From Bacteriovoracaceae bacterium (GTDB lineage Bacteria > Bdellovibrionota > Bacteriovoracia > Bacteriovoracales > Bacteriovoracaceae): a stretch of DNA of 42,405 bases. The notes under the pieces are model-generated. The model had not been told where the DNA came from. It saw nothing but the letters and a program-made list of their open reading frames with translations, and did no database searches. Positions 36,288-41,813 of the stretch are shown here, one piece after another. The stretch's first letter is position 1; every line of letters starts with the position of its first letter. The stretch spans positions 1 to 42,405 of the forward strand of contig JAGLPP010000026.1 in assembly GCA_023137315.1 (NCBI GenBank), written 5' to 3'. Made by a program: the position numbers and the translations under genes.

Positions 36288-36315
36288 AAATTATGCCATC
36301 GTTGTGGCATAATTT
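36288..36315. promoter_or_regulatory. Inverted repeat upstream of the DUF3015 gene, candidate operator
   Basis: AAATTATGCCA (36288-36298) and TGGCATAATTT (36305-36315) are perfect 11-bp arms around 6 bases, 37 bases before the DUF3015 ATG and 91 bases from tsaD. The minus-strand reading of its right arm, TGAAATTATGCCA, differs by one base from that of the left arm of the TRAP inverted repeat (TGAAATTATGGCA). Confidence 0.5.
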
Positions 36316-36351: not shown

Positions 36352-36792
36352 ATGAAACTATTTGTCGGTATAATTGTTTTATTTCTGACTTTTTCAGCCT
36401 ACGCGGTTGATAAATCAAGTGGATGTGGTGCTGGCTGGTATGTCACCAAGAGAAATTCGCTTGTTTCCTCGACAATAAGAGGGACTACAAATGCAATTTT
36501 TTTCAATGCAACACTTGGTATGACCAGCGGGACAATGAACTGTGCCAGACACAGTATTGTTAAAAGTGAGAAAAGAGGCATTCACTATGCGGAAGCAAAC
36601 TTTCATCAGCTAATGGTTGATATGTCCCGTGGGGAAGGTGAGTTTCTGGAAGGGTTTGCCCATGTGGTTGGATATTCCGGAGACATGAAATTATTTGGTG
36701 GAATGGTTCAGCAAAATTTTGGTGACATTTTTGTGAATAGTGATACAACTGCTCAAGAAATGTATGAGAATTTCAAAAACGTAGTGATCTAA
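36352..36792 (+). CDS. DUF3015 secreted protein
   Basis: A signal peptide (residues 1-19) is followed by a short SSGCGAGWYV segment and TTNAIFFNATLGMTSGTMNCARH. The 'TSGT..C' block is the mark of DUF3015 proteins, small periplasmic proteins of unknown role. The rest (YAEANFHQLMVDMSRGEGEFLEGFAHVVGYSGD) is helical and conserved in the family. AGGAGG-type site GGAGGAA lies 5 bases before the ATG. The next gene, 21 bases on, encodes a DUF4105 protein; DUF3015 and DUF4105 genes often sit together, which supports the call. Confidence 0.85.
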   Translation: MKLFVGIIVLFLTFSAYAVDKSSGCGAGWYVTKRNSLVSSTIRGTTNAIFFNATLGMTSGTMNCARHSIVKSEKRGIHYAEANFHQLMVDMSRGEGEFLEGFAHVVGYSGDMKLFGGMVQQNFGDIFVNSDTTAQEMYENFKNVVI

Positions 36793-36813
36793 AACAAGGA
36801 GAATGACGGGCAG

Positions 36814-38682
36814 ATGAAGAAATTGCTCGTTACCATAATATTTTTATCAATGGCCGCTTCTTGCGAGGCGGCTTCTTTGTATGACAAACTGCAAGGCCGC
36901 ATGGGACTTCAGTATTGGTTAAAGCTCCTTCATTACAAGCCAAATTTTTGGGGACATTACAAAAGCATTACAGATAGTCCGAATTTTTTCCTCGATAAAA
37001 ATGGAAAATATAATCCCGAGGCGGAATTTTATGCAAGCATCAAGGCATTCAAGGATGGAAAACCGCTGGTAGGAACATTGAAGCTTCATCCTCAGTGTGC
37101 CTTTCCTGAACGCTACAGATTTCTCAAGGAAATTGGATTGTTAAACACGATGGATGCTCCATGCAAGGATTTCAAGGAATGGAAGAAGGGAATCAATGCA
37201 GAATCCATTTCTCTCGTTTTCTCCACTTCTTTTCCAAACAATCCGGCCTCTCTTTTCGGCCATACGTTTATACGGATTAACCAGAAAGGGAAAAAAAGCG
37301 ATCTTTTGGATTATGCTGCAACTTATGGTGCGAATACCAGCGAGGAAGGTTCAAAATTCAGATATGTTTTCTACGGTCTCTTTGGCGGCTACAAGGGGTA
37401 TTTCAATTTTATGCCCTATTACCAGAAGGTGAATGAATACAACAACTCCGAATCCAGGGATATCTACGAATATAAACTGAACCTCGAACCGGACGGAGTG
37501 GATCGTATAGTGAACCATCTTTGGGAACTCTACACCACGGCCTGGTTTGATTATTATTTTCTTGATGAAAACTGCTCGCTTATTCTCGGCGGTGTTTTGG
37601 AACTTGGCCGTGATGAGTGGAATCTCACCAAAAAGGACAAGTGGTACTATCTTCCAGCCGATTTGATTAAACTTATAGCTAAAACAAAAGGTGCGGTGGA
37701 TGAGGTTGGATTCCGTCCTTCCATCGGACGCAGGCTTGATTGGCGACTTTCCAGTCTTAATTCAGGGGAAAAAAAACTTTTCAGTGCAGTTAAGAGCGGG
37801 GACGTTATTTCTGAACAGATTGGTAACACCAAGGTACTGGACGCCCTGATAGTTTATTTTGATTTTCTCAAGCACAAGGAATTCGGTGTATTGAGACCAA
37901 AACATAAAAAAATCTATCACCAGGTGCTTTTAAGAAGATCAAAATTCAAAGATGGCACGGCGATAAAGAAGGACTGGAAAAGAGATAACAAACCTGATTT
38001 GGGACACGGACCGCAAAAATTTTCGCTTATAGCAGGGGCCGTTAACGATTCTTCGGTGGCCGGAATTCATTTCAAGTTCGGCTATCATGATCTGCTGGAT
38101 AACGATAAGGGATATGAGCCGTTTTCGGGTCTGGATTTTGCCGAAATAGGAGTTGAATATAATTATGATCTGAAGGAGTTGGATATTTCACATATCGGTG
38201 TTATTAACATCTTTTCACTCCATCCCATGAACTTTTATGATCCGCGCTTTTCCTGGCAGGTTGGATTGAATCAATTGTTTGCCGGTGAGATTGATGGAAT
38301 GGGAAAAACAAAGTGGAGGGCCGATGGAGGTGCCGGTGCCACATTCAATCTGGGAAGTGATTATTTCAGATGGTATTTTATGTTTGGGGCGGTTGCAGAA
38401 ACAAGCAAGCATTTCGAAAATAGCTGGCGTTTAGGCCCGAAGGTGGATACCGGATTGTTGATGAACCCGACTGAAAAATATAAATTGACCCTTACTGGCA
38501 GGGTTATCGGGGATGTTATTCGTCGAATAAAAAAAGATTACTATGGCGAAGCTGTCCTCGGACAGTCTTTGTGGATAAAACGGAATCAGGAATTACGGTT
38601 GAATGTTGCATATGTCAGCAGATTCGGCAGCTTTGATCGTAGTACTTATAGTGCCAGGTTCGGATGGAATTTTTGTTTTTAA
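36814..38682 (+). CDS. DUF4105 (Lnb-like) protein with C-terminal barrel-like domain
   Basis: After a signal region (MKKLLVTIIFLSMAASC, possible lipobox with Cys17) comes an unknown N-terminal part. Residues about 132-260 form the DUF4105 domain: SFPNNPASLFGHTFIRI (S146, H150), YYFLDENCSLIL (C254). In Gram-positive Lnb, this fold moves an acyl chain within lipoproteins, and its His and Cys are equivalent; a cysteine acyltransferase or peptidase-like chemistry is inferred here. Residues about 390-622 alternate hydrophobic and polar residues with many aromatic residues and end in FGWNFCF, the C-terminal Phe typical of outer-membrane barrels. The protein may thus sit in the outer membrane with its catalytic part in the periplasm. 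AAGGAG is 12 bases upstream, a little far. Confidence 0.82.
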   Translation: MKKLLVTIIFLSMAASCEAASLYDKLQGRMGLQYWLKLLHYKPNFWGHYKSITDSPNFFLDKNGKYNPEAEFYASIKAFKDGKPLVGTLKLHPQCAFPERYRFLKEIGLLNTMDAPCKDFKEWKKGINAESISLVFSTSFPNNPASLFGHTFIRINQKGKKSDLLDYAATYGANTSEEGSKFRYVFYGLFGGYKGYFNFMPYYQKVNEYNNSESRDIYEYKLNLEPDGVDRIVNHLWELYTTAWFDYYFLDENCSLILGGVLELGRDEWNLTKKDKWYYLPADLIKLIAKTKGAVDEVGFRPSIGRRLDWRLSSLNSGEKKLFSAVKSGDVISEQIGNTKVLDALIVYFDFLKHKEFGVLRPKHKKIYHQVLLRRSKFKDGTAIKKDWKRDNKPDLGHGPQKFSLIAGAVNDSSVAGIHFKFGYHDLLDNDKGYEPFSGLDFAEIGVEYNYDLKELDISHIGVINIFSLHPMNFYDPRFSWQVGLNQLFAGEIDGMGKTKWRADGGAGATFNLGSDYFRWYFMFGAVAETSKHFENSWRLGPKVDTGLLMNPTEKYKLTLTGRVIGDVIRRIKKDYYGEAVLGQSLWIKRNQELRLNVAYVSRFGSFDRSTYSARFGWNFCF

Positions 38683-38684
38683 AA

Positions 38685-39509
38685 ATGAAGATAATAATTC
38701 ATATTCTTACATTAATGCTCGTGTCCTGTACCCATGTCTTTTTTCAGCCGGACAGGATTCATTATTATGATCCTGCGTTGCAGGGAGTACATGATTTTGA
38801 GGACATGTATTTTGGTTCGTATGATAATTTAAAACTCCACGCACAGTATTTAAAGGGTGAAAAAAATAAAAAAGGTCTTTTGGTGCATTTTCACGGCAAT
38901 GCTGAAAATCTTTCTTCGCATTTTATGCATTTTCTCTGGCTTCCAAAATTTGGTTATGATTATTTTATTTTCGATTATCGCGGTTACGGTAGAAGCTGGG
39001 GGAAACCTTCATTTGACGGGGCCATCGCTGATGGAAAGGAGGCACTTGATGTTGCGTGGAAATTGTTCAAAAAAGAGGGATACGAAAAATTTATTGTTTA
39101 CGGTCAGAGTCTTGGCGGGCCCATACTCTTAAAATCACTTCAAAAATTTAAACATGCAGCAGAAATAGATCTGTTGGTTTTGGATTCCACATTTGTTGAT
39201 TACAAGAAAGAGGCGTTTGATGTTTTGAGCGGAAATGCGGTGACTTTTTTGTTTTCACCTCTGGCATTTATGCTTGTTTCCAACACGCACTCCCCAAGAA
39301 AGGATCTTGCCGCTATAAATATTCCAACGCTTGTAATTCACGGAAAAAAAGACAGGACTGTTGATTTCCATCATGGTGAATATATTTTCAATAATCTAAA
39401 AACGAAAAAATGGTTCTGGCCGATTGAGAAGGGAAGACATACGGATATTTTCTTTAATGGAAAGAAAGAGTACAGAAAAAAATTCGTTGATTTTATTGAT
39501 TCCCTATAG
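38685..39509 (+). CDS. Alpha/beta-hydrolase lipoprotein
   Basis: From ATG 38685 the 274-residue product has a lipoprotein signal ending LVSC (Cys15). The hydrolase core shows HGNAENLS (oxyanion region), FDYRGYGRSWG, the nucleophile elbow GQSLGG with S142, aspartate in HGKKDRTVD (D223) and histidine in KGRHTDIF (H252), a complete Ser-Asp-His triad of the BEM46/YfhR type. It would be an esterase or lipase held at a membrane. It follows the DUF4105 gene by 2 bases and so is probably coupled to it. Its stop overlaps the convergent ybgF-like gene by 6 bases. Confidence 0.88.
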   Translation: MKIIIHILTLMLVSCTHVFFQPDRIHYYDPALQGVHDFEDMYFGSYDNLKLHAQYLKGEKNKKGLLVHFHGNAENLSSHFMHFLWLPKFGYDYFIFDYRGYGRSWGKPSFDGAIADGKEALDVAWKLFKKEGYEKFIVYGQSLGGPILLKSLQKFKHAAEIDLLVLDSTFVDYKKEAFDVLSGNAVTFLFSPLAFMLVSNTHSPRKDLAAINIPTLVIHGKKDRTVDFHHGEYIFNNLKTKKWFWPIEKGRHTDIFFNGKKEYRKKFVDFIDSL

Positions 39510-41270: not shown

Positions 41271-41813
41271 TTACTCTTCGCCTAATTCGTATTTGACAGT
41301 TCCGCCTTTTGTTGTGTGATCAAAAGTAACGGTGATCTTGTAGGACCACCATCCGGGCCCGCCGCTTCCAATGCATGAGTTGTATCCGCCGTCACCTGTT
41401 CCGTCGATGAGGAAGTGGATATAGATACCACTGTTGTTCTTCAGGCCATCTTCGTTGATGGTTCCAGTCAGGGCGTATCCGCAAGGATATGGTTCTCTGA
41501 CAGTGGCGTTGCGTGTGAGATATTTCCAGATATAGCGTGCAATATTTTTTGCGTTTGACAGATGGGCGCTGTTTCTTTCCACGGAGAATTCAAATTCGCC
41601 GCTTGAATGTTCGGTATCAAAGTATTCCGATTCAGAAAAATTCTTGAGGCTTCCAGTATAGTTAGAGGTGACCAATGTGTCGTATACGAAGGCCTCTTTA
41701 ACTTTGACGTTGATGGAGTCGCCACTCCACGCGTATGCCTGGGCCATTAAGAACAGGCCGGCCATGATGGCCATTATTTTTATAGTTTTGTTTGTTGTAA
41801 ATCTTGTAATCAT
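41271..41813 (-). CDS. Secreted protein of unknown function
   Basis: A signal peptide ends near residue 28 (MAIMAGLFLMAQAYA then WSG). The mature 152 residues are beta-rich, with alternating hydrophobic residues, a SCIGSGGPGWW segment near residue 145 and two cysteines (near 117 and 144) that may pair. No family is recognised. AAGGAG lies 7 bases before the ATG. It stands alone between pal and ssrA, facing away from ssrA. The GPGWWSYKITVTFDHT ending looks like a beta-sandwich edge. Confidence 0.68.
   Translation of the reverse strand: MITRFTTNKTIKIMAIMAGLFLMAQAYAWSGDSINVKVKEAFVYDTLVTSNYTGSLKNFSESEYFDTEHSSGEFEFSVERNSAHLSNAKNIARYIWKYLTRNATVREPYPCGYALTGTINEDGLKNNSGIYIHFLIDGTGDGGYNSCIGSGGPGWWSYKITVTFDHTTKGGTVKYELGEE

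Follow-up and report, generated by a model that had tools for sequence, protein, structure and literature searches.

Organization of the locus

The window (the whole stretch of DNA analyzed, 42,405 nucleotides) corresponds to contig C143 in a draft genome of 3.1 Mb. Among the named genomes that match it most closely are Bdellovibrionales, Bacteriovoracaceae and other metagenome genomes. Between positions 36352 and 39509 it holds three consecutive genes on the same strand, coding for a DUF3015 protein, a DUF4105 protein and an alpha/beta hydrolase. A preliminary description of this DNA had named the same three genes, and each of them is matched by Pfam. The features of the locus are:

36288..36315, strand not applicable: perfect inverted repeat AAATTATGCCA-N6-TGGCATAATTT, 28 bases, in the divergent tsaD/DUF3015 intergenic (promoter) region
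36352..36792, + strand: DUF3015 protein, 146 aa (PF11220, 111.6 bits)
36814..38682, + strand: DUF4105 protein, 622 aa, with signal peptide, DUF7843, Lnb_N, linker, barrel and terminal F622
37171..37683, + strand: stretch coding for Lnb_N (PF13387, aa 120-290, 169-172.7 bits)
37987..38631, + strand: stretch coding for the DUF7840 barrel (PF25222, aa 392-606, 125.7-128.9 bits)
38685..39509, + strand: alpha/beta hydrolase lipoprotein, 274 aa (Pfam), with an alternative in-frame ATG at 38664

The DUF3015 and DUF4105 genes are 21 bases apart. For the hydrolase, the start at 38685, 2 bases past the DUF4105 stop, is more plausible than the overlapping one at 38664, and the LVSC lipobox of the protein is the same with either. 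Upstream of DUF3015 lies tsaD, in divergent orientation, while a TPR protein and a Pal-like OmpA-family lipoprotein are encoded downstream on the opposite strand. Further along, positions 41271-41813 of the minus strand code for an exported 180-aa protein with no significant Pfam match. The inverted repeat is a candidate operator or terminator-like element, to which we assign no role; as the genome holds no second copy of it at 0-2 mismatches, no regulon was found.

A predicted outer-membrane barrel follows the catalytic domain

The DUF4105 protein has an N-terminal signal peptide, as judged by sequence inspection, followed by DUF7843 (aa 33-106, 63.5 bits in Pfam), Lnb_N, a helical linker (aa 291-376) and the C-terminal DUF7840 region. 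AlphaFold2, run on this protein with 51 relatives, gave a model with a mean pLDDT of 90.8 and a pTM of 0.90, in which residues 402-621 form twelve strands, most of them at pLDDT >85. A Foldseek search of this model against solved structures returned 72 matches at E<=1e-3, and the best 50 of these 72 are outer-membrane barrels; those listed include porins, NanC (target TM-score 0.61), NalP, EspP, EstA, OmpG, PcoB, BamA and BcsC. The barrel of 8-12 strands that had been suggested for residues 390-622 is therefore what the model contains, and since the matches are outer-membrane barrels we infer that it is closed, with an even number of strands. Hydrophobic and other residues alternate in most of the strands. 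Moreover, 114 of 119 complete relatives end in F or Y, against ~9% of other ORFs, and the window protein itself ends in F622, the terminal Phe already noted in the preliminary description. The protein is thus predicted to reside in the outer membrane, anchored by its own 12-stranded barrel.

As the number of strands is even, the two ends of the barrel should both lie on the periplasmic side, and this would place the catalytic domain there as well. The barrel turns next to the catalytic domain are the better conserved ones, with a mean top-residue frequency of 0.45 against 0.24 for the turns on the opposite face, and they carry the conserved motifs (H425, D426, G433, L469 and P471), a pattern that is consistent with the barrel touching the catalytic domain. 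The same evidence bears on an autotransporter-like arrangement, in which the 12-stranded barrel would export the N-terminal enzyme to act at the surface or outside the cell, as in EstA. Not only does the order of an N-terminal enzyme and a C-terminal 12-strand barrel suit such a protein, but EstA, NalP and EspP are all among the Foldseek matches listed. Nevertheless, we consider it distinctly improbable, as the far-side turns are short and variable while the conserved ones lie toward the catalytic domain, and no autotransporter Pfam family matched either the window protein at E<=1 or the 51 members at E<=0.001. In addition, the N-terminal domains stay with the barrel in 51/51 members, all of which retain DUF7843, Lnb_N and DUF7840 when aligned.

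Permuted catalytic residues suggest probable acyl chemistry

Residues H150, Y247, N253 and C254 of the DUF4105 protein are invariant in 121/121 relatives, so the conserved His150 and Cys254 of the preliminary description were correctly placed. C95 and C117 are likewise invariant in all 121 and perhaps form a disulphide. In the AlphaFold2 model, taken as secondary structure only, H150 opens a strand and C254 opens a helix. The order His, Tyr, Cys is that of the permuted NlpC/P60 scheme, whose enzymes carry His, a polar residue, Tyr and Cys in order, together with a hydrophobic pocket; one of them, YiiX, had bound a fatty acid (PMC3142127). DUF4105 has been classed within this permuted group, with Tox-Act1, which cleaves PG and PE, as its sister clade (PMC12994826). 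Because the permuted relatives Lnb and Tox-Act1 act on acyl chains and YiiX binds a fatty acid, acyl chemistry is the best class prediction for the Lnb_N domain.

The wider superfamily also includes peptidoglycan peptidases, and the domain could be read as a peptidase or amidase that acts on the cell wall or on proteins, as canonical NlpC/P60 enzymes do, with lipids not involved. Such a role would agree with the fusion of one hydrolase homologue to an M23 cell-wall peptidase domain and with the presence of genes for Pal-like and TPR proteins close by in the window. However, the order of the catalytic residues is permuted, and the permuted relatives that have been characterized act on acyl chains (PMC3142127, PMC12994826), so we judge a peptidase or amidase very unlikely. 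A sequence search of solved structures with the DUF4105 protein found no relative. The Max protein was rejected as one, given that the profile matches were weak and confined to the helical linker.

Relation to Lnb, Lnt and PldA

Lnb is reported to N-acylate lipoproteins in Bacteroides (PMC12994826 and PMC12345273, both of which cite Armbruster et al., 2024), and the first of these papers notes the identification of DUF4105 as Lnb in that genus (PMC12994826). The preliminary description was mistaken in treating Lnb as Gram-positive, as Bacteroides is Gram-negative. Lnb and the DUF4105 protein share a homologous N-terminal Lnb_N domain with a catalytic His and Cys, but the latter adds DUF7843, the helical linker and, in place of the C-terminal half of Lnb, the DUF7840 barrel. 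Against the curated Lnb model (NCBIfam equivalog NF051878) it scores 19.8 bits, far under the cut-off of 550, in an alignment that covers only positions 26-148 of 394, and 20 of 51 family members match the model weakly.

A counterpart of Lnb would be expected to supply lipoprotein N-acylation where Lnt is missing; here Lnt accompanies the barrel protein. The Lnt of the source genome scores 232.9 bits and appears to be intact, as the protein contains IWPE, KLIPFGE and ICYE motifs. Lnt was matched in 58 of 59 relatives, 56 of them above the cut-off and among these all 45 good-quality genomes, as well as above the cut-off in 8/8 distant genomes that carry the barrel protein. Since these genomes have a true Lnt, N-acylation does not need the DUF4105 barrel protein, and we rejected it as an Lnt stand-in. 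DUF4105 proteins have been described as displaced by Lnt in some contexts (PMC12994826); judging by the genomes sampled, this pattern does not hold for the barrel-anchored subgroup. An Lnb-like enzyme that moves or remodels the acyl chains of lipoproteins at the outer membrane would fit the homology of the catalytic domain and the weak model matches, but the low score, the different C-terminal half and the presence of Lnt make it unlikely. The earlier suggestion of lipoprotein or lipid remodelling thus survives as regards acyl chemistry, the likely class, and is weakened as regards lipoprotein acylation.

The module as a replacement for the outer-membrane phospholipase PldA likewise found no support, as the two show no anticorrelation. 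PF02253 (OmpLA/PldA) has no match in the source genome.

The gene neighborhood is conserved across lineages

The DUF3015 protein has a signal peptide, conserved GCGxG, TTNG and GTxxC motifs (C25, C64) and a helical C-terminal part; no fold match was found for its model. We analyzed its linkage to barrel-type DUF4105 genes in two samples, the first with 40 relative loci picked by DUF7840 alone, which contain 41 barrel genes, and the second with 80 loci from other genomes, picked by the DUF4105 profile and drawn from Bdellovibrionota, Nitrospira, Marinobacter, Pseudomonas, Gallionella, Thalassotalea and others. DUF3015 adjoins 41/41 barrel genes in the first sample, on the same strand every time, and 75/80 in the second, where three of the five exceptions begin at a contig end. 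In all, it adjoins 116 of 121 barrel-type genes from Bdellovibrionota, Nitrospirota and Proteobacteria, a few of these neighbors being weak matches of 42-46 bits (L069, L074, L086). In a set of 59 genomes, DUF3015 and the barrel protein also agree in presence and absence (34/1/1/23; Fisher p = 4e-14, uncorrected for phylogeny). When the neighbors of 118 loci were clustered, DUF3015 was present in 100 and the hydrolase in 53, both recurring across lineages; the next group was a generic ABC ATPase, followed mainly by single-lineage genes. The arrangement is not due to chance.

The third gene had been described as a lipidated Ser-Asp-His hydrolase, which agrees with an LVSC lipobox (Cys15) and with S142, D223 and H252, all three invariant in an alignment of 11 sequences. 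It matches Hydrolase_4 (PF12146, 64.6 bits) and Abhydrolase_1 (PF00561, 51.4 bits) and has an HGN motif at residues 70-72, and its relatives also carry a Cys after a hydrophobic stretch. In relative G056 the neighboring lipoprotein hydrolase (L039:6663-8060) continues at its C-terminus into a fused peptidase domain of the M23 (LytM) type.

The link between the hydrolase and the barrel protein is looser. A hydrolase lies within 1.2 kb of the barrel gene in just 10 of 41 cases in the first sample and 36 of 80 in the second (24-45%), 23 of these 36 at >=200 bits. Since ~60% of barrel genes are without a hydrolase nearby and about a third of barrel-bearing relatives have no strong orthologue, the hydrolase is, judging by gene content, not essential to the barrel protein. 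It might then be a bystander, with DUF3015 and the barrel protein alone as the functional pair, an explanation compatible with any of the other readings. We doubt it on several grounds. Besides the generic ABC ATPases, the hydrolase is the sole other family that recurs beside the pair across lineages. In the source genome the window hydrolase stands apart, with 403 bits vs 55 for the next protein; genomes usually have one strong orthologue, and the best match is the module copy in 5 of 6 distant genomes. Moreover, with orthologues defined by a cut-off of at least 200 bits in 59 relatives, 25 genomes have one, and the barrel protein is encoded in 24 of these 25; in half of the 24 the two genes are unlinked. 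The Fisher test for this co-occurrence gives p = 3e-7 overall and 7e-4 within one family, uncorrected for shared ancestry.

Proposed activity and known systems

We propose that the module is an outer-membrane acyl-lipid enzyme, in which a periplasm-facing thiol enzyme, partnered by the hydrolase and DUF3015, would cleave or transfer acyl chains, and we give this reading an even chance of being right. With His150 activating it and Tyr247 assisting, Cys254 would attack an acyl chain held by an ester bond in a lipid of the outer membrane, in all likelihood a phospholipid, and form an acyl-thioester. The acyl group could then be released to water, as by a phospholipase, or handed to another acceptor, as by a transacylase. 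The Ser-Asp-His lipoprotein hydrolase, presumably anchored in the same membrane, would process the product, a lyso-lipid or a fatty ester, and DUF3015 would work alongside the barrel protein as a small partner in the periplasm, perhaps in a regulatory, inhibitory or folding role. More tentative is a broader form of the proposal, that a barrel-anchored papain-like acyl-enzyme belongs to a widespread outer-membrane pathway and edits lipid or lipoprotein acyl chains within the outer membrane itself, together with the lipoprotein hydrolase and the DUF3015 partner, in cells where Lnt is already present; this is possible, and we lean somewhat against it.

The DUF4105 protein has its His-Tyr-Cys order in common with Tox-Act1, TseH, YiiX and LRAT (PMC12994826, PMC3142127). 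The members of this permuted group that have been characterized carry out acyl-lipid chemistry, whereas that of the DUF4105 protein is predicted only; unlike it, none of them has been described with an outer-membrane barrel. EstA (3kvn) combines an N-terminal enzyme with a C-terminal 12-strand barrel, as the DUF4105 protein does, but it is a serine esterase and not a thiol enzyme of papain-like fold, and its partners differ from those conserved here. OmpLA/PldA is also a 12-stranded outer-membrane barrel, and resembles the DUF4105 protein in the acyl-lipid activity that we propose for the latter. The Ser-His-Asn center of OmpLA sits on the barrel itself, whereas the putative center of the DUF4105 protein is in a separate Lnb_N domain.

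To our knowledge, few enzymes alter acyl chains inside the outer membrane. If the proposal is true, the module, which has a defined catalytic center and a predicted barrel anchor and is conserved in lineages as distant as Bdellovibrionota, Nitrospira, Marinobacter and Pseudomonas, would represent a new type of outer-membrane acyl enzyme. Databases annotate such proteins as 'DUF4105 domain-containing protein' beside 'DUF3015 domain-containing protein', and in the limited literature collection searched we found no paper on the barrel, on the pair with DUF3015 or on all three genes together. The domains are already catalogued, and what appears to be new is that an acyl-enzyme domain of a known kind is combined with an outer-membrane barrel and accompanied by conserved partners. 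Caution is also advisable in naming, as not every DUF4105 (now 'Lnb_N') protein deserves the name of lipoprotein N-acyltransferase.

Related loci

The source genome carries two Lnb_N paralogues (C148:9454-11301 and C35:29058-30992; L078 and L079) with DUF7844 before Lnb_N. They have Lnb_N in common with the DUF4105 protein but no barrel, and are joined instead to a domain with an HExxH motif (HELAH or HEIAH) that looks metalloprotease-like. One of them has a gene for a small exported protein directly upstream, just as DUF3015 precedes the barrel gene. Three more, shorter matches to DUF3015 occur elsewhere in the source genome (C15, C176, C16), and in several genomes tandem DUF3015 duplicates lie upstream of the barrel gene (L043, L045, L049, L060, L070 and others).

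A gene for the outer-membrane lipid-transport lipoprotein MlaA lies within a few kb of the module at L160:9684-10715 and at 13 other Nitrospira-type loci, with Pfam confirmation in L160. This proximity, seen in the Nitrospira lineage only, is a suggestive hint of a lipid role. Finally, the A. baumannii plasmid pJ9-3 (L163) carries a DUF4105 gene of full-length similarity with no DUF3015 among its annotated neighbors. It adjoins blaADC, between two copies of ISAba1, and has apparently hitchhiked with the beta-lactamase.
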